Shown: positions 1,924 through 32,920 of the stretch, piece by piece
Numbering within the stretch: position 1 is the first letter of the stretch
Layout of the letters: every line of letters starts with the position of its first letter
DNA from: Bdellovibrionota bacterium
GTDB taxonomy: Bacteria; Bdellovibrionota_G; JALEGL01; DATDPG01
NCBI GenBank assembly: GCA_035292885.1
Contig: DATDPG010000118.1
Span: 1-32,920 of the forward strand
Length of the DNA stretch: 32,920 bases
Reading direction: 5' to 3'
The notes under the pieces: model-generated
The model's database searches: none
Told to the model about the DNA's origin: nothing
The model's input: only the letters and a program-made list of their open reading frames with translations
Made by a program: the position numbers and the translations under genes

Positions 1924-3498
1924 TTAATGCCGGAAATGGCGGACGCCGGTGAAGATCATCGCCATGCCATGCTCGTCGGCCGCTTGAATCACTTCCGCGT
2001 CGCGAACCGAACCGCCCGGCTGAACTACGGCGCGGACGCCATGTTTCGCCGCCTCGTCGATGCCGTCCCGGAACGGGAAGAAGGCGTCGGAAGCCAGCAC
2101 GACATTCTTTAAAAGCTCGGGCTTCGCTTTCATGGCGGCGATGCGGCTGGAATCGACCCGACTCATCTGACCGGCACCGACGCCGACCGTCTGCGTTTCA
2201 TTCGCCAAAACGATGGCGTTGGATTTCACGTGTTTCGCGACCGTCCAGGCGAGGCGAAGCGCGGAATATTCCTGTTCCGTCGGTTTCCGTTTCGTCGCGA
2301 TTTTGCATTCCCGTAAGTCCTCGAACGAGCGGTCCCGGTTTTGGATCAAATAACCGTCGGCCGCTCTGCGAATATCTACTCCCCCCATGGCCGAGCGGAG
2401 GTCGTTCAAATCCGCCTCCAGCATACGAAGATTCTTTTTCTTTCCGAACACCGTCCGGGCGTCCGCGTCGAATTTCGGCGCGATGACGATTTCGGTGAAT
2501 GTTTTTTCACACGTCGAAGCGGTTTGGCCGTCCACCGGATGCGAAAATACGACGATTCCGCCGAAGGCGGAGAGAGGATCGCAGGAGAGGGCTCGCTCAT
2601 AAGCTTCCAGAAGCGATTTATCCGACGTTCCGACACCGCACGGATTCGTATGTTTCAAAATCGCTACGCTATAATTCTTTTCCAGTTCGAGGATGAGATC
2701 GAGGGCTGCATGAACGTCCATCAGGTTGTTGTAGGAGAGCGTTTTCCCCTGCAGCACCTTTTCCAGAACCGTATTCCCGAGTGCAGCGGATGGAAGATAA
2801 AAGCCGGCCTCCTGATGCGGATTTTCCCCGTAACGCAGCTCCCACTTCTTGTCGAGGCCGAGCGCGAACCGTTTCGGAAGCGTTTCACCGGAGCCGCGGA
2901 AATAAGCCGAAATCGTGGCGTCGTAATTCGCCGTCCGTTCAAATACGTGCAGGGCGCACTCTTTGCGGAACGCAAACGTGGTGCCTCCGTCGTTGGTTTC
3001 CAATTCCTTCAAAAAAGATTCGTACTGCCCCGGCTCGATCAGGGCCGTGACGTAGGGAAAATTCTTGGACGCCGCCCGCAAGAGTGTCGGCCCGCCGATA
3101 TCGATCTGTTCGACCACGTCGTCGAAGCTTTTTCCCGGCGTGCGCGCCGCCGCCTCGAAAGGATAAAGATTGACGACGACCAGGTCGATCGGGACGTACT
3201 TTTGCTCCCGCAGCGCGGCCATATGGGCCGAATTATCCCGGATCGCCAAAATGCCTCCATGGATCTTGGGATGGAGCGTCTTGAGTCGGCCGTCCAACAT
3301 CTCCGGCGCGCCTGTAAAATCGGACACTTCCACCACCTTGAGCCCCTTTTCGGAAAGGAACTTGGCGGTACCGCCGGAGGAGAGAATTTCCACCCCCCGG
3401 TTTTGAAGGACTCGGCCGAGCTGCTCCAACCCGGTTTTGTCACTGACGCTGATCAGGGCCCGTTGAATTTTCGTGATCTTTTGGTGTGTCGGCTCCAT
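1924..3498 (-). CDS. purH: Bifunctional AICAR transformylase / IMP cyclohydrolase
   Basis: PurH catalyses the last two steps of de novo IMP synthesis: formylation of AICAR with 10-formyl-THF, then ring closure. The 524-residue product has the N-terminal MGS-like cyclohydrolase domain ([10 protein letters not shown] at 14-23, LDGRLKTLHPKIHGG at 68-82) and the transformylase domain (LRYGENPHQ at 221-229, catalytic KHTNPCG with K282/H283). I chose ATG 3498; a TTG at 3522 would add eight residues that the family does not need. No Shine-Dalgarno is visible. It ends a same-strand run that begins with the kinase gene. The first 43 codons and the upstream 50 nt are repeated at 4217-4417, so its original neighbour was mlaD, now separated by two cargoes. 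Confidence 0.97.
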   Translation of the reverse strand: MEPTHQKITKIQRALISVSDKTGLEQLGRVLQNRGVEILSSGGTAKFLSEKGLKVVEVSDFTGAPEMLDGRLKTLHPKIHGGILAIRDNSAHMAALREQKYVPIDLVVVNLYPFEAAARTPGKSFDDVVEQIDIGGPTLLRAASKNFPYVTALIEPGQYESFLKELETNDGGTTFAFRKECALHVFERTANYDATISAYFRGSGETLPKRFALGLDKKWELRYGENPHQEAGFYLPSAALGNTVLEKVLQGKTLSYNNLMDVHAALDLILELEKNYSVAILKHTNPCGVGTSDKSLLEAYERALSCDPLSAFGGIVVFSHPVDGQTASTCEKTFTEIVIAPKFDADARTVFGKKKNLRMLEADLNDLRSAMGGVDIRRAADGYLIQNRDRSFEDLRECKIATKRKPTEQEYSALRLAWTVAKHVKSNAIVLANETQTVGVGAGQMSRVDSSRIAAMKAKPELLKNVVLASDAFFPFRDGIDEAAKHGVRAVVQPGGSVRDAEVIQAADEHGMAMIFTGVRHFRH

Positions 3499-3571
3499 GG
3501 CGGGCGGGAAGATGCCACACAATGCGGGGTTAGAAAAGGGCTAAAACTTACCCAGCGGAACGGCCGAAACC
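3371..3571 (-). repeat. Junction repeat copy 1: purH head plus last 9 codons of mlaD
   Basis: This stretch matches 4217-4417 base for base with no gap and about 8 mismatches in 201. It covers purH codons 1-43, the 42-nt leader and the mlaD stop with the codons before it (VSAVPLGKF). Right of 3571 the match to mlaD ends abruptly and cargo DNA begins. The copy is therefore a mlaD tail stranded in front of the functional purH, bounding the ORF6N cargo on one side. Confidence 0.93.
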
Positions 3572-3627
3572 AGCGCTTGAAGAATATTCGAAGAGTGGAG
3601 TCGGAACCGCGGTGACCGATGGAGTTC

Positions 3628-4179
3628 TCACTCTTTGTCGGTAACTGTGGTCGGCTTGTCAGTCGATTCTGATTGAAAGCCAATCCGACGCTTTGGCGTA
3701 GTAAGCGGTGCCATCAACTGGCGTATGGCAACGAAAACCTCTCGAAACTGAGCATCATACTTCCTCTCAAGCTGATCGAGTTTTCGCGCCAAGTCTTTGT
3801 GCGTGGCCAGCATCTCCCGAAGCCGAACAAAAGCCATGACAATTTGAACACTGGCCTGAACGGCCGTGGGACTATTCAGTATGTTTGCAGCCATGATGAC
3901 CCCGTGCTCGGTAAAGGCATAAGGTAGTTTTCGGCGACCGCCGTGCTGAGAGCTTGATCTCGCAAATTGCGACATCAAATCTGTAACTTCTTGAAATATA
4001 AGTTGAAACATGAAGGCTTCGGGGAATCGACCAGGGTTCCGTTTTACCTGTTCGTTCAACCGGGTCGTTGTCACGCCATAAAGTTCGGCTAGGTCAGAGT
4101 CGAGCATGACTCGGAGACCCCGAATTTCGTGGATACGTTTTTCAATCACTGGAATTGGAATAAGGGCTTTCTGTGTCAT
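3628..4179 (-). CDS. ORF6N-domain protein (cargo 1)
   Basis: A 183-residue protein with a clear ORF6N domain at about 8-100. Landmarks are VMLDSDLAELYGV (24-36), RNPGRFPEAFMFQL (47-60), YAFTEHGV (87-94) and MAANILNS (96-103), followed by a basic helical tail (LRKL/ERKYDAQF type, 120-155). ORF6N is known from phage antirepressor-like proteins and is scattered in bacterial genomes on mobile DNA; it is presumed to bind DNA, but no pathway is established. The gene lies exactly between two copies of the mlaD/purH junction repeat (3371-3571 and 4217-4417) and points the same way as the interrupted operon, so read-through could still reach purH. Local G+C is visibly lower than in its neighbours. Foreign origin is inferred. 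No integrase or transposase accompanies it. Confidence 0.88.
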   Translation of the reverse strand: MTQKALIPIPVIEKRIHEIRGLRVMLDSDLAELYGVTTTRLNEQVKRNPGRFPEAFMFQLIFQEVTDLMSQFARSSSQHGGRRKLPYAFTEHGVIMAANILNSPTAVQASVQIVMAFVRLREMLATHKDLARKLDQLERKYDAQFREVFVAIRQLMAPLTTPKRRIGFQSESTDKPTTVTDKE

Positions 4180-4216
4180 AGGATCTTCGTATTCTCACTA
4201 ATCGCCTTTACCCGTT

Positions 4217-4432
4217 CCGCCGGAGGAGAGAATTTCCACCCCCCGGTTTTGAAGGACTCGGCCGAGCTGCTCCAACCCGGTCTTGTCACTGACGCTGATC
4301 AGGGCCCGTTGAATTTTCGTGATTTTTGTGTGTGTGGGATCCATGGCGGGCGGGAAGATGCCACACAATGTGGGGTTAGAAAAGGGCTAAAACTTGCCCA
4401 GCGGAACGGCCGAAACCAAAGATTTAAGGTCG
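4217..4432 (-). pseudogene. Junction repeat copy 2: mlaD tail followed by truncated purH head
   Basis: On the minus strand this reads the last mlaD codons (LKSLVSAVPLGKF, stop), the same 42-nt leader, then purH codons 1-43, where it breaks off into cargo 1. Against copy 1 the purH start differs as MDPTHTK versus MEPTHQK, and several changes are synonymous. Its mlaD part (4379-4432) matches the true mlaD end (4967-5020) over 54 bp with one mismatch. The fragment cannot make a working enzyme. It is a middle copy shared by two insertions: cargo 1 on one side, cargo 2 on the other. Confidence 0.92.
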
Positions 4433-4439
4433 ATTGTTC

Positions 4440-4826
4440 CTAGCTTGAACTGTCGGCAGTAAGGAAGATGATTCCGAAAATAAGTCCTACAAGCACCCCC
4501 GCGCCCAAAACCGCCAGCCCCACTTTTCCCGCGGTGCTTAACTCTCTTGCCTGAGAGGACTGAAAGTTTTGTAATTCTGATGGCTCCAACACACTTCCCT
4601 TGAGTGGGCCCCGCATACTTATTAATTGGCCAGGCGGGTTGTTGAAAGCTGTCGGTTTGTATTCAATATCTGCGTTCTCAAATTCGGCCAAGTGGAACCG
4701 GCCCGACTCTACCGAAAATTCCTTTTGGTCCACCAGACTATATTTTTCGAAATTCAATTCGTCTGCGAAAACCGTCAGAGGACATGCCATTGATATTACG
4801 AGCAAGTAAATTAACGGCGTTTTCAT
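4440..4826 (-). CDS. Unknown small exported protein with C-terminal membrane helix (cargo 2)
   Basis: The predicted product is 128 residues. It has a signal peptide (MKTPLIYLLVISMACPLTVFA, cut before DELNF), a polar middle of about 70 residues, and a C-terminal hydrophobic helix (GLAVLGAGVLVGLIFGIIFL) near the end. I recognise no family. ATG 4826 is preferred over ATG 4841 because GGAG (4832-4835) stands 5 nt before it and it opens a textbook signal peptide. The stop is 7 nt from a 54-bp mlaD-tail repeat, and the gene region is more AT-rich than its surroundings, so it looks acquired. Upstream lie a sigma-54 -24/-12 element (4853-4869) and a CCTGACA dyad (4892-4914) that recur before the exported gene at the right edge. 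An envelope or stress role is possible but unproven. Confidence 0.72.
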   Translation of the reverse strand: MKTPLIYLLVISMACPLTVFADELNFEKYSLVDQKEFSVESGRFHLAEFENADIEYKPTAFNNPPGQLISMRGPLKGSVLEPSELQNFQSSQARELSTAGKVGLAVLGAGVLVGLIFGIIFLTADSSS

Positions 4827-4852
4827 AGCGGCTCCATTCATTCATGAAATGT

Positions 4853-4869
4853 AGCAACCAATATGCCAG
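4853..4869 (-). promoter_or_regulatory. Sigma-54 (-24/-12) promoter of the exported cargo gene
   Basis: In gene orientation the sequence is CTGGCAT-ATTGG-TTGCT. The GG and GC doublets have the invariant sigma-54 spacing, and the element differs from the TGGCAC-N5-TTGCW consensus at one position. The predicted transcription start is about 4842, giving a 16-nt leader that still contains the GGAG ribosome site. The same element with the same upstream motif occurs at 32770-32786. A promoter this specific implies an NtrC-type activator; two are encoded in the window. Confidence 0.72.
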
Positions 4870-4891
4870 ACTTTGGTGAGCACAAGAAGCA

Positions 4892-4914
4892 TGTCAGGAC
4901 AGCCTTACCTGACA
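4892..4914. promoter_or_regulatory. TGTCAGG-N9-CCTGACA dyad, candidate activator site
   Basis: Perfect 7-bp inverted arms lie around a 9-nt centre. In gene orientation the promoter-proximal CCTGACA spans about -56 to -50 relative to the predicted start at 4842. That is the same distance at which CCTGACA stands before the sigma-54 element at 32770. It could be an upstream activator site. It could also be an unrelated hairpin, but the repeated spacing argues for binding. Confidence 0.6.
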
Positions 4915-4966
4915 CTTCTCCCGTCAATTTCGTATTGGCTGATGATTACGGTTTTCGACAGCGGCG

Positions 4967-5020
4967 GAAAAGGGCTAAAACTTGCCCAGCGGAACGGCCG
5001 AAACCAAAGCTTTAAGGTCG
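4967..5020 (-). repeat. mlaD-tail repeat, resident copy (copy 3)
   Basis: The last 15 codons of the intact mlaD plus the stop match 4379-4432 with a single mismatch in 54 bp. The two copies bound cargo 2 (4433-4966). Beyond both ends the sequences are unrelated, so the boundaries are sharp. The arrangement resembles an attachment-site duplication at a gene's 3' end, or a crossover in homologous DNA. Confidence 0.92.
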
Positions 5021-26848: not shown

Positions 26849-28258
26849 TCAGCGTGTCTTAAATTCTTCGGTGTTGATCTTGTACTTTTCGATCTTCCGC
26901 AAAAGCGTCTTTTTCGGGATATTCGTATGCGCGCTGGTCTGATTGATCTTTCCGTTAAACCGCCGCAACGCTCGAACGATGAAGTCTCGCTCGTATCTCT
27001 CTTTAAACGAAGGGAAATCGAGTTCCTCCGCGGCCGATCCATCGGCGCTCGGTGCGCTGACGGGAACGGGCGAAACATCGGCGGCCATCCCTTCGACGGG
27101 GCGGAGAGATTCCGGCAACGAAAATTCGGTGATCACCTTTCCGGATTCCAGAACAAAAGTATGTTCAATGACATTCTCGAGTTCGCGGATATTTCCCGGC
27201 CAAGAGTGGGTCTTGAGGCGGGCGAGTGCCGGGGCATCGATGCCTTGGATCTCCTTTTTGTGTGCGACGTTGAATTTCCGAACGAAATGCTGGACCAGCA
27301 TTTCGATGTCTTCGACCCGCTCTCGCAAGGGAGGAAGGTAGATCGGGAGGACGTTGAGGCGATAATAGAGATCCTCACGGAACGTACCCGCCTTCATCAT
27401 CTCCTCGAGATTCCGGTTGGTGGCCGCGATCACGCGGACGTTGGCTTCCACCTCTCGATTGGATCCGACCGGCATAAAGCATTTTTCCTGAAGAACGCGC
27501 AGAAGTTTGACCTGCATCGAAGGAGAAATGTCGCCGATCTCGTCGAGAAAAATCGTTCCGCTGTCGGCGAACTGAAACTTGCCGATCTTTCTCTGGTCGG
27601 CGCCGGTGAATGCGCCCTTTTCATGGCCGAAGAGTTCGCTTTCAATCAGCGTTTCGGGAATCGCACTGCAGTTAACGGCTACGAACCGTCCGTCTTTTCG
27701 AAGGCTGTTGAAATGAATGGCGCGGGCGACCACTTCCTTGCCGGTTCCGCTCTCGCCCCGGAGCAAAACGGCCGTGTCGACGTTGGCCAACTTCTCGATC
27801 AGTGTAAAAACTTTCTGCATGCCGCCGCTTCGACTGGAGAGTTTTGTTCCGGTCTCATCCGTGAAAATCGGCGCGGAATACGCCACTTGAGCGACCAGGT
27901 CGTGGGCCTTGAGCGCCCGCTCCACCATGTCTCGGATATCGGCGTGGCGGATCGGTTTTTGAAGGTAGTTATAGGCCCCTTCCCGCGTCGCGGCGACGGC
28001 GTCTTGAATGGTCGAATACGCGGTAAGAATTAGAACAATGGTCCGGGGGTCGTGCTTTTTGATTGCTCGAAGGGTGTCCATGCCTCCCATTCGGGGCATG
28101 TCCATGTCGAGGATAACGAGGTGTACGCCTCCGGCACGCACTTTTTCCATGGCTCCCAGGCCGTCTTCGGCCTCGTCCACTTCGTGAGGATCGGAGAGGG
28201 CGGTACAGAGCGATCGCCGCAATTCGGCGTCATCATCCACGATTAGAATACGGCTCAC
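26849..28258 (-). CDS. NtrC-type sigma-54 response regulator
   Basis: The 469-residue product has a receiver domain (D8/D9, phospho-acceptor D51, T79, K101). The AAA+ domain follows, with Walker A GESGTGKE (168-175), the sigma-54-contacting GAFTGA (215-220), Walker B FLDEIGD and the R-finger region. The C-terminal Fis-type HTH ends the protein ([24 protein letters not shown]). GTG 28258, with GGAGGA upstream, gives the usual ILIVDDD start. No histidine kinase is adjacent. It is a candidate activator for the sigma-54 promoters at 4853 and 32770, though the second regulator at 29450 is closer to one of them. Confidence 0.94.
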
Positions 28259-28344
28259 CGACGGGTTCCTCCGGCCGCAGCGTATAATGCGATGCGGCAA
28301 CAAGTCAAGCTTCTGGTGCCACTTTGGCCCCTCGAATTGATTGC

Positions 28345-29449: not shown

Positions 29450-30814
29450 TCAATTCATGCCGAATCGTTTGAGATGGTAGTAGAGCGTCGGCCGTTTGAT
29501 TCCGAGCTTTCGAGCCGCCTGAACTTTGTTGCCGCCGCACACGGAAATGGCTTCCTCCAACTGCTCTTTCGTCAGGTCGGAGGCATCGGCCGCCTGGACG
29601 GTCTCATCGATTCCGGGTCCCAGGACCAAATCTTCGGGTGCGATCGTATCGGCGGAGGCTAGGATCAAGGCCCGTTCGAGAACGTTTTCAAGCTCGCGCA
29701 CGTTTCCGGGCCAGTCGTAACTTTTCAGTTTTTCCATCGCACTCTTGGAGAGTGCCTTTGCTGGAATCCCGGTATTTCGGGCCGCACGCGCCAGGAGACG
29801 GCCGGTCAGCTCGGTTAGATCGCCCATTCGCTCGCGCAGGGGAGGGACCCGGATGGGAAACACATTCATCCGGTAATAAAGATCCTCCCGGAACGTCCCG
29901 TCCTTCGACATTTTCTCCAAATCCCGGTGCGTCGCCGCGATCACGCGAACATCAACCCGAATTGTTTCGTTCCCTCCAACGCGCTCAAACTCTTTTTCTT
30001 GAAGGATACGAAGAAGGTTCACCTGAAGCTTGGGCGAGATATCGCCGATTTCATCGAGAAAGAGGGTTCCTCCATCCGCCGCCTCAAAACGTCCGATTCG
30101 TCGACCGACTGCGCCCGTAAACGCGCCTTTTTCATGGCCGAACAGTTCACTTTCCAAAAGTCCTTCGGCCAGCGATCCGCAGTTCACGCGAACGAACGGC
30201 TTTTCCCTCCGTGGACCGGCCGCATGAATCGCCCGAGCGACCAGTTCTTTGCCGACGCCGCTCTCGCCGCGAATGAGAACGCTGGAACTCGTAGGAGCGA
30301 CTTTAGAGATCATTGCCACCACGCCTTTTAGGCCCTGGGCGGCGCCCGCGATTTCAGAAAAGTCGTACTGTTCCGCGATCTCTTCTTTTAGATAGCGATT
30401 GTCTCTTTCCAACTCGGCGAGCAGACGGCGGTTTTCAATCACCAGGTCGTATCGTTCGAAAGCCTGAGCGATTGCTTGGATAAGGTCTGGCTCGCGCCAC
30501 GGTTTTGTGAGGTAACGATAAATCACCCCGGCGTTCACACCCTCCACCAGCGGACCTAGGTCGGTGTAGGCGGTGAGAAGGATTCCCACTCGGTCGGGAT
30601 TTTTTTTGAGCGCTTTCTTGAGAAACTCAACGCCGGTCATCTCCGGCATCCTCTGATCGGCGACGATTAATGCAAACTCCCCGCCCTCCAGGCGTGAAAG
30701 CGCGGCGGAACCGGTGGTTTCGGTCTCCACATCATATTTGCCCCGCAAAACGCGCCGTAGCGTGGCGAGATTTTCGAGACTGTCGTCGACGTAAAGAAAC
30801 TTTCGCGGCGTCAT
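29450..30814 (-). CDS. Sigma-54-dependent response regulator, partner of the adjacent kinase
   Basis: The 454-residue product has a receiver of the HupR/RpfG style (D10/D11, phospho-acceptor D53, T81, K104; [10 protein letters not shown] and YRYLTKPW). A coiled linker (about 120-150) follows. The AAA+ domain has Walker A GESGVGKE (183-190), GAFTGA (230-235) and FLDEIGD, and the Fis-type HTH closes the chain ([24 protein letters not shown]). It overlaps the histidine-kinase gene by 4 nt. The divergent exported gene past the kinase carries a sigma-54 promoter, which makes this protein the leading candidate activator. Confidence 0.94.
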
Positions 30815-32628
30815 GAGGCGTCCGGAGGAGAGATCGGCAGTGTCACCGTAACCATGGTACCTCGGTTCGGTTCACTGGCAATGGTCAGCTTTCCTCCGTG
30901 CGCCGTCACGATTCCGTGGCAGACGCTCAATCCCAATCCCGTGCCCCCCGGCTTCGTCGTGTAAAACGGCTCGATCACACGGGAGAGTTGCTCCTTCGAA
31001 ATGCCCTTTCCGGAATCGGCGATCGTCGTCACGACCTCCCGGCCGTTTGTGGTCACCGTCATATCGATGGTTCCCTCGCCTTCGATGGCTTGGATAGCGT
31101 TCAGAAGTAGATTCAGAAACAGTTGATGGATCGGCCCCGGCGCGCCTACCAGATCGGGTACCGGTTGAAAATCGGTTTTGATTTTGATCCCCTCTCCGGT
31201 CTGGGCACGTAAGAGTCGGAGCACGGAAGCTAAAACCTGACCCACGTTAAGAAGCGTCTTTTCGGACGCAGGAGGTTTCGCAAAGGCCTTCAAGTCTGAG
31301 ACGATATTGACCGTATGCTCCGCGCCTTTCGTGAGGTTCGAAAGAAGCTCCGGAAGATCCTGTCGAAGAAACTCGTAATCGGCTTTTCGCTTTAACTCAT
31401 CCAGCTTCGAGGAATCTCCCTGGGACTCCACGAGGGAGACGAGGGAATCTCCGTATTTCTTGAGGACTGGGAGATTCGACAGAACGACGTTCATGGCGTT
31501 GCCGATCTCGTGCGCCGTGCCCGCCGCCAATTGCCCCACGGCTGCGAGCTTGGTGGCTTCCGTAAGTTCCGCTTGCGCCTTTCGAAGTTCCGCCGTTCGT
31601 TCTTGCACTTGGGCTTCCAATCGATCCACGAGAAAGAGATTCGCCCGGAACATGGCGAATGCCACGGCGACGGGAAAGAGGGCGCTCAGGGGAGCCATCC
31701 AATGCAAAGGAATCGGGACGTCGAACATAAAAACGAGCCAGACACCCGCGAAAATGGCGCCGAAACCGGGAAGAAGAGGGATCAACATCAGCCGGCACTG
31801 TCGGCGAACCTCTTCCATTCGATCGTAAAATGCCCGCCACGCCGTTGCCCCCAGCCACACGACGTAAGCTAAGGAAAGGTAGAGAAAGAGAATGTACTCA
31901 AAGATCTTCCACCGAACGGGGTCTCGGTCGAAATAATAGAGATAGGGCAGGGCCAGCAGCGCGGAAATACCGTAGAAGATGGACGGGACAAATCGGCGGC
32001 CGGGAGAACTCCATGGTCGAGGAAAGGCGAGACACAAGTGTAGAACGCTGGCGGGGAGGACCGAAAACGCCGCCAAGAGTAAATATCTCAGTTCATATGT
32101 GGTGTGAAAATCGTAAGCGGTCAGAAAGTATATGGCCGTGGAGAAGCAATAGGCCAAGAACGCAACAAGGCCGGCGGGCGCCGGATAGACGAGCGCGGCG
32201 ATCATGCCGATCAGCCAAAACGCCAATCCCGTGGCGAACAGAGGGGTGAAAATCCGAAAGACGTCGCGAGCGGGCAGAGGAGAGATCGGTAAAGAAACTT
32301 CCAACGGACTTTTCCCGTGCGAGATTTGCGTTTGTACCGCTCCCAATGGAGCACCTTTTTCGCGGAGGAGTCTTTGCCAATCGTCGGCGCTTGAAAGAGG
32401 GCCGCCGTCGACCGAAAGAACGCGGTCGTGGTACGTGAGCGCCAGGGCGCCACCTTTCCACTCCGGTTGAGTGAAGGCGCCGATGAAGAGATTATGGAAC
32501 GGCAGAATTCCAGCGAATGGCATTTGAACCGTCGTGAGGGCTTTTTGAAGAACATTGCTCGAAAGAAGCAGGCCGCCCCCAAGGCAGCAAAGGATCAGCA
32601 GGTTTCGGACTGACGCCATACGCTTCAT
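30811..32628 (-). CDS. Multi-pass membrane histidine kinase with PDZ-like extracytoplasmic loop
   Basis: The 605-residue product starts with a membrane helix (about 8-24). A periplasmic stretch (50-118) follows, whose RVLSVDGGPLSSADDWQRLL reads like the core of a PDZ domain. About seven helices (125-330) come next, then a coiled coil (335-360) and the dimerisation helix with phospho-acceptor H373 in TAHEIGNAMN. The HATPase domain has N-box NLLLNAIQAI, DSGKGI, GGTGLGLSVCHGI. It resembles NtrB/7TM-type kinases of deltaproteobacteria. A PDZ-like sensor suggests response to envelope protein ends or misfolding (inference). ATG 32628 and ATG 32619 are both possible starts. Confidence 0.93.
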   Translation of the reverse strand: MKRMASVRNLLILCCLGGGLLLSSNVLQKALTTVQMPFAGILPFHNLFIGAFTQPEWKGGALALTYHDRVLSVDGGPLSSADDWQRLLREKGAPLGAVQTQISHGKSPLEVSLPISPLPARDVFRIFTPLFATGLAFWLIGMIAALVYPAPAGLVAFLAYCFSTAIYFLTAYDFHTTYELRYLLLAAFSVLPASVLHLCLAFPRPWSSPGRRFVPSIFYGISALLALPYLYYFDRDPVRWKIFEYILFLYLSLAYVVWLGATAWRAFYDRMEEVRRQCRLMLIPLLPGFGAIFAGVWLVFMFDVPIPLHWMAPLSALFPVAVAFAMFRANLFLVDRLEAQVQERTAELRKAQAELTEATKLAAVGQLAAGTAHEIGNAMNVVLSNLPVLKKYGDSLVSLVESQGDSSKLDELKRKADYEFLRQDLPELLSNLTKGAEHTVNIVSDLKAFAKPPASEKTLLNVGQVLASVLRLLRAQTGEGIKIKTDFQPVPDLVGAPGPIHQLFLNLLLNAIQAIEGEGTIDMTVTTNGREVVTTIADSGKGISKEQLSRVIEPFYTTKPGGTGLGLSVCHGIVTAHGGKLTIASEPNRGTMVTVTLPISPPDAS

Positions 32629-32683: not shown

Positions 32684-32700
32684 GGAAAATTAATTCGCGC

Positions 32701-32748
32701 TGACAGGAATCCTGACACCTCTTTAAACAAACCTGACACGCCTGACAC
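32701..32748 (+). promoter_or_regulatory. CCTGACAC repeat cluster, candidate upstream activator sites
   Basis: CCTGACAC occurs three times (32711, 32732, 32741). The first forms an imperfect dyad TGACAGG-AAT-CCTGACA (32701-32717). The first and second are 21 bp apart, two helical turns. Relative to the sigma-54 start predicted at about 32797 the cluster lies at about -96 to -49, the usual zone for NtrC-type enhancer sites. The last CCTGACA sits exactly as far from the -24 element as in the cargo gene promoter at 4853-4914. Confidence 0.6.
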
Positions 32749-32769
32749 CCCCGCCAAGCCTGAGAAAGC

Positions 32770-32786
32770 CTGGCATGCGAGTTGCT
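32770..32786 (+). promoter_or_regulatory. Sigma-54 (-24/-12) promoter of the right-edge exported gene
   Basis: CTGGCAT-GCGAG-TTGCT has GG and GC at the canonical sigma-54 spacing and differs from the copy at 4853-4869 only in the five spacer bases. The predicted start, about 32797, lies just before the gene's clustered ATGs, so the leader would be very short. A match this long in two upstream regions is unlikely by chance. Confidence 0.7.
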
Positions 32787-32798
32787 GAAGAGTGGGGC

Positions 32799-32920
32799 AT
32801 GATGCAAATGAACAAAAAGGTATTTTCCTTCCTCATCGCAACGTTATTTCTGGCCGGAATTTCTTCATCGAATGCCGCGGAGAAAAGACCGGTCGAAAAC
32901 CAGAGCACGAGTTCCGCGAA
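32799..32920 (+). CDS. Exported protein, N-terminus only (runs off right edge)
   Basis: The frame is open from ATG 32799 to the window end. A signal peptide is clear (MNKKVFSFLIATLFLAGISS, cut after SNA), followed by a polar stretch (AEKRPVENQSTSSA). In-frame ATGs stand at 32799, 32802 and 32808; 32808 starts the signal peptide most naturally, but the leader would then be only 11 nt. No further sequence is available, so the family is unknown. Divergent from the histidine kinase and preceded by a sigma-54 promoter with CCTGACAC sites, it is a likely target of that two-component system. Confidence 0.62.
   Translation, partial: MMQMNKKVFSFLIATLFLAGISSSNAAEKRPVENQSTSSA

Follow-up and report, generated by a model that had tools for sequence, protein, structure and literature searches.

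In a Bdellovibrionota bacterium, we found a sigma-54 promoter joined to a nearby upstream CCTGACA box at four places in the genome, and these sites probably mark a small regulon under sigma-54, with at least four members that encode exported proteins, which is activated by the NtrC-type regulator encoded at 29450-30814. Two of the genes lie in the window (the whole stretch of DNA that was analysed, 32,920 nucleotides, which is the entire contig C118) and two lie elsewhere in the 3.10-Mb draft assembly of 214 contigs; judging from their shared control regions, all four very probably respond jointly to a single sensor-regulator pair that turns them on.

The composite motif CCTGACA-N22-CTGGCAT-N5-TTGCT has exact matches in the window at 4853-4898 (minus strand) and 32741-32786 (plus strand), and no third site was found there with up to three mismatches. 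With three mismatches permitted, it was also missing from all of 100 dinucleotide shuffles of the window. Thus, the sequence-only reading was right that the same words recur with the same spacings at both loci. Its assignment of the promoters to the sigma-54 type is likewise supported: the -24/-12 elements CTGGCAT-ATTGG-TTGCT (4853-4869, minus strand) and CTGGCAT-GCGAG-TTGCT (32770-32786, plus strand) both match the consensus TGGCAY-N5-TTGCW in full, with GG at -24 and GC at -12. Counted from the C of the -12 element (4854 at the first site), the predicted transcription starts fall near 4842 and near 32797, respectively. The first site precedes gene a (4440-4826, minus strand), an ORF whose predicted regulated product has 128 amino acids; the predicted start near 4842 is compatible with the ATG at 4826, which has a GGAG just upstream, and we therefore took 4826 rather than the longer ORF start at 4841 as the beginning of the gene. 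The putative proximal activator box of gene a (CCTGACA, 4892-4898, minus strand) lies 22 nt upstream of CTGGCAT. At the second site, four CTGACA boxes lie in direct repeat on the plus strand (starting at 32700, 32711, 32732 and 32741, and ending at 32747) between a kinase gene and gene b, and four boxes within 100 nt have a probability of ~1e-4 under a first-order Markov model.

A scan of the whole genome, as the sequence-only reading had proposed, was then evaluated. The pattern TGGCAYN5TTGCW alone gave 23 matches, compared with 4 for its reversed-pattern control. The composite, with a spacer of 20-24 or 20-25 nt, gave exactly four sites, each ahead of a gene, and none for the reversed control. 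The two sites outside the window, C81:4112 (plus strand) and C150:1717 (minus strand), played no part in defining the motif; chance would give ~0.006 such sites close to the 21 -24/-12 sites that remain (P ~2e-5). These out-of-sample sites bear out the earlier claim of a conserved signal, which would probably place the genes under common control. At all four sites, the proximal box lies 21-22 nt from the -24 element. Moreover, the 100 nt upstream of each promoter held 13 TGACA/TGTCA boxes in all at the four composite sites, versus a total of 2 at the 19 other -24/-12 sites. A relaxed pattern (TGACA-N13-38-GGC-N8-TGC) recovered the four sites amid chance-level matches and gave no convincing fifth, and four further genomes from the phylum, G001 of the same order among them, had no match to the strict composite. 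In viral contigs, the exact composite matched 50 times among 2.9 million contigs, which by our estimate is about the number expected by chance. Together with the enriched -24/-12 set, the 24 matches to the Sigma54_activat domain in the genome imply that it encodes sigma-54. What the computation demonstrates is the motif at four sites, how specific it is, and that it stands ahead of genes with signal-peptide-like N-termini.

All four composite sites lie ~12-30 nt ahead of small genes with signal-peptide-like N-termini, and these N-termini are strongly hydrophobic in each of the four downstream ORFs; the signal peptides were called by inspection and hydrophobicity alone. The product of gene a also carries a C-terminal hydrophobic helix (residues 82-126 form a helix in a low-confidence structure model), and these predictions agree with the earlier view that it is exported. 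Gene b (32799-32920, plus strand; start at 32799 or 32808) is predicted to be regulated and ends at the contig edge. The third member (C81:4173) encodes 156 amino acids and is followed by a lipoprotein-like ORF, and the fourth (gene d, C150:1712, ~74 amino acids) is divergent from an OmpA-family porin gene. BLASTP detected no kinship among the four targets, the complete ones matched nothing in Pfam at E values of up to 1, and the gene a product had no NCBIfam match either. The C81 protein was also considered as a homolog of a neighbouring protein in G001, a genome of the same order, and this was rejected since the similarity is insignificant. Toxin-antitoxin or ORF6N genes occur within ~1 kb of three of the four members. 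Convergent to the C81 member is a MazF-like toxin-antitoxin pair (L028:5316-5899), while gene d ends in a 23-bp inverted repeat (L029:1468-1490 / 1522-1544) and is followed by an apparent C-terminal part of a RelE-like toxin in a decayed locus (L029:1185-1544).

The arrangement of the boxes is less uniform than the motif. The nearest box lies at about -27 relative to the -24 element at all four sites. The second lies at -43 to -45 in inverted orientation at three of them and at -36 in direct orientation at gene b, and further boxes occur at about -57 and at -66 to -84. At gene a, the proximal box and a second box (TGTCAGG, 4908-4914, minus strand) form the inverted pair TGTCAGG-N9-CCTGACA (4892-4914). 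In contrast, the 32.7-kb site has direct copies of CCTGACA at 32711, 32732 and 32741 plus CTGACA at 32700 (32700-32747), and no inverted pair. The claim of a dyad identical in layout at the two window sites therefore fails; the layout common to both is the proximal box and the promoter only. Inverted half-sites in this genome take the forms TGTC-N8-GACA, TGTC-N11-GACA and TGTC-N15-GACA, and because the half-sites are arranged differently from site to site, they do not reduce to one common dyad. The sequence-only reading had also stated that the intervening bases differ. They do, but not freely: pairwise identity of the 22-nt spacers is 46%, compared with 28% after shuffling, and none of 20,000 shuffles reached 46%. 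The spacer pattern NCCCN2TCGNGCT is thus a third, weaker conserved element, and its conservation may stem from function, as a third element of the control region, or from shared ancestry of the sites.

Common descent is also suggested by the setting of gene a. Together with its promoter and boxes, this gene occupies a unique insert (4433-4966, minus strand) between copies of the tail of mlaD, and the insert has a GC content of 47%, versus 56% for the window. The mlaD tail, a 54-nt direct repeat, is present in three copies (3533, 4379 and 4967), and a 215-nt mlaD-purH junction region is present in two (3368 and 4214; 94% identical), which indicates that mlaD once abutted purH directly. A 588-nt repeat unit contains gene a, its promoter and its boxes, and an 846-nt unit contains an ORF6N gene (3628-4179) and a truncated head of purH. 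These nested repeats (3368-5020), which enclose both genes and were read from a draft assembly of many contigs, could stem from two insertions with flank duplication or from a duplication followed by decay. Since gene a and its control region both lie inside the insert between mlaD-tail copies, they arrived, or moved, as a unit. The earlier description of gene a as horizontally placed is upheld as far as the insert and its GC content are concerned, but a foreign source is unsupported: searches of plasmids, phages and viral contigs gave no relatives of gene a. Its horizontal origin therefore remains a guess, and a move within the genome could explain the insert. Tuning of the gene to a host regulon after its arrival, as the sequence-only reading suggested, is likewise conjecture.

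It is possible, although we would not favour it, that one ancestral cassette of promoter and boxes was copied to four places and then decayed. The regulation would still be real, by a mechanism compatible with the regulon proposed above, but the sites would resemble each other through shared ancestry and not through independent conservation of the signal. The spacer identity, the arrival of gene a together with its control region, and the toxin-antitoxin genes or remnants adjoining the C150 and C81 members all fit such copying. However, the flanks beyond the boxes and promoter align poorly, the coding regions are unrelated, the number and orientation of the boxes vary among the sites, and the conserved spacer could just as well be kept for a function of its own, as a third element.

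The candidate activator of the regulon lies beside gene b. The regulator gene (29450-30814, minus strand) encodes an NtrC-type response regulator with a receiver domain (PF00072), an AAA+ domain (PF00158) and a Fis-type helix-turn-helix (PF02954), and its translation contains GAFTGA. It overlaps the gene of a proposed cognate sensor histidine kinase (30811-32628, minus strand), for which one transmembrane segment, a periplasmic PDZ-like domain, seven predicted transmembrane helices and HisKA/HATPase domains (Pfam) were assigned. PDZ_2 matched each of the three sensor regions that were aligned (best E 1.2e-4), and the seven helices after the PDZ-like region come from a low-confidence structure model. 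A comparison of the sensor fold with the PDB gave weak seven-helix resemblances only (best E 4e-3), which we do not take as a relationship. The kinase-regulator pair is divergent from gene b, and the densest box cluster sits in the kinase-gene b intergenic region. Among the 24 activator-domain matches, only the two in the window share a contig with any composite site, and the pair at 29450-32628 is the only kinase-regulator pair that touches any of the four. The second of these two, another NtrC-type response regulator at 26849-28303, has no adjacent kinase and lies ~1 kb beyond the first.

In addition, G001 has the same pair, in which the kinase is 41% and the regulator 59% identical and the recognition helix is identical. 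One of its 21 -24/-12 sites (C16:4696) carries several boxes, namely a GTGTCAACGTTGACAC palindrome (half-site gap 6) and CCTGACA, before a gene for an exported metalloprotease-like protein; the box spacing here is 46 nt and differs from 21-22 nt. The three boxes have a chance probability of ~0.006 for that single site, uncorrected for the 21 sites. On the basis of adjacency and of this one weaker match in a genome with the same pair and an identical recognition helix, we assign the boxes, with reasonable rather than high confidence, to the 29450-30814 regulator acting with the 30811-32628 kinase. In 80 named contigs bearing relatives of the regulator (mainly from Myxococcota, with others), no site with at least two boxes was detected nearby, and the recognition helices differ.

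Less probably, the regulon is the same but another activator, for example the one at 26849-28303, acts on the boxes, and the neighbouring pair controls something else. The 24 activator-domain matches in the genome and the presence of the 26849-28303 regulator on this contig, ~2.5 kb farther away, leave room for such an assignment, and neither a CCTGACA box nor a convincing -24/-12 site was detected beside the G001 kinase-regulator operon. Yet it is the 29450-32628 pair alone that touches a site and has the densest box cluster in its own intergenic region, and the sole multi-box promoter of G001 occurs in a genome with the same recognition helix.

More doubtful still is the reading that the CCTGACA boxes serve a repressor or other non-activator protein, bound immediately ahead of a conventional sigma-54 promoter. 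Most enhancers lie farther from the -24 element, and are less rigidly spaced, than the 21-22 nt of the proximal box, which would suit such a protein. Nevertheless, sigma-54 promoters require an activator, the extra boxes reach as far as 84 nt beyond the -24 element, in the manner of an enhancer array, and sigma-54 activators commonly use TGT/ACA half-sites (PMC4641369). Chance resemblance of the two window sites, which could only appeal to the shortness of CCTGACA and its six copies in the window (~2 expected), has a negligible probability and is rejected by the empty shuffles, the four genomic sites, two of them out of sample, and the lack of reversed controls.

For the preferred regulon, with the 29450-30814 regulator as its activator, the identity of the binding regulator, the sign of its effect and the signal are inferred, and the following sequence of events is proposed. 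Sigma-54 RNA polymerase would sit at the -24/-12 element (4853-4869; 32770-32786), and the phosphorylated regulator would occupy between two and five CTGACA/TGTCAG half-sites that lie ~50-110 nt ahead of the start, with the closest one a nearly constant 21-22 nt from the -24 element. ATP hydrolysis by the regulator would then open the promoter. The regulator itself would be driven by the PDZ-plus-multi-transmembrane kinase, which probably senses a condition of the cell envelope or membrane. Gene a itself was inserted, control region and all, between mlaD and purH.

Several known systems resemble this one. PrsK/PrsR, which controls a sigma-54 regulon of exported PEP-CTERM proteins, also combines a multi-transmembrane kinase and an NtrC-type regulator in tandem with scattered exported-protein targets and an upstream box, sometimes repeated, plus a -24/-12 element. 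However, its spacer is variable with a mean of 62.8 nt, and its regulon motif includes TTTACA (Haft 2006, PMC1569441; PMC9850573), whereas the spacer here is 21-22 nt, the box is CTGACA and the targets have no PEP-CTERM tail (Pro-Glu-Pro is absent from the gene a product and the C81 protein). PrsK/PrsR was rejected as an identity for the pair, since the regulator scored 369.6 against a cut-off of 502.6 (TIGR02915) and the kinase 72.8 against 300 (TIGR02916). The enterobacterial system QseE/QseF (GlrK/GlrR), with glmY and rpoE as targets and QseF sites of the form TGTCN10GACA (PMC6075780, PMC8745638), shares a sigma-54 response regulator, several upstream sites of TGTC/GACA half-sites and a cell-envelope theme. 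It was rejected as well: the regulator scored 325.6, far below the GlrR cut-off of 763, the half-site gaps here are 15, 11 and 8 (6 in G001) rather than 10, and the kinase has a PDZ/multi-transmembrane sensor. Activator motifs of Desulfovibrio vulgaris are likewise built of TGT and ACA half-sites, 9, 11 or 12 bp apart in three motif groups (PMC4641369), a likeness of half-sites that falls short of an exact match to the present arrangement. Finally, a general role of sigma-54 in governing the exterior of bacteria has been proposed (Francke 2011, PMC3162934), and most -24/-12 sites here and in G001 agree with this idea, as by inspection they precede exported proteins or lipoproteins. What differs is that the present lineage is poorly sampled and that the four sites form a sub-regulon with its own box.

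The general control logic is already known, and we consider the regulon here to be real. It provides a concrete set of regulator, boxes and targets in a little-studied lineage, as well as a testable example of a gene inserted along with a complete activator-dependent control region. The PDZ-plus-multi-transmembrane kinase, encoded next to a sigma-54 regulon whose products are exported, is also a lead for envelope sensing outside well-studied bacteria. DegS reads misfolded outer-membrane protein ends for sigma-E. By analogy, it is conceivable, if rather improbable, that the PDZ-like domain does the same and that the small exported proteins are a protective output, carried as promoter-plus-gene inserts; if true, this would be a sigma-54-based envelope stress response with self-contained inserts plugging into it around the genome.

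Some further features of G001 are worth recording. A gene for a Cu/Zn superoxide dismutase lipoprotein follows its kinase-regulator operon (L150:6686-10502), a possible hint to the signal. The product behind its box-bearing promoter (L211:3708-5827) is an exported HExxH metalloprotease-like protein, and the product of the gene upstream of it in this locus is also exported, has hydrophobic helices and ends in an aromatic C-terminus. Moreover, orthologous genes (L008, L199; 81% identical over 90 amino acids) lie directly behind a -24/-12 element in both genomes, which suggests a conserved sigma-54 target across the order.
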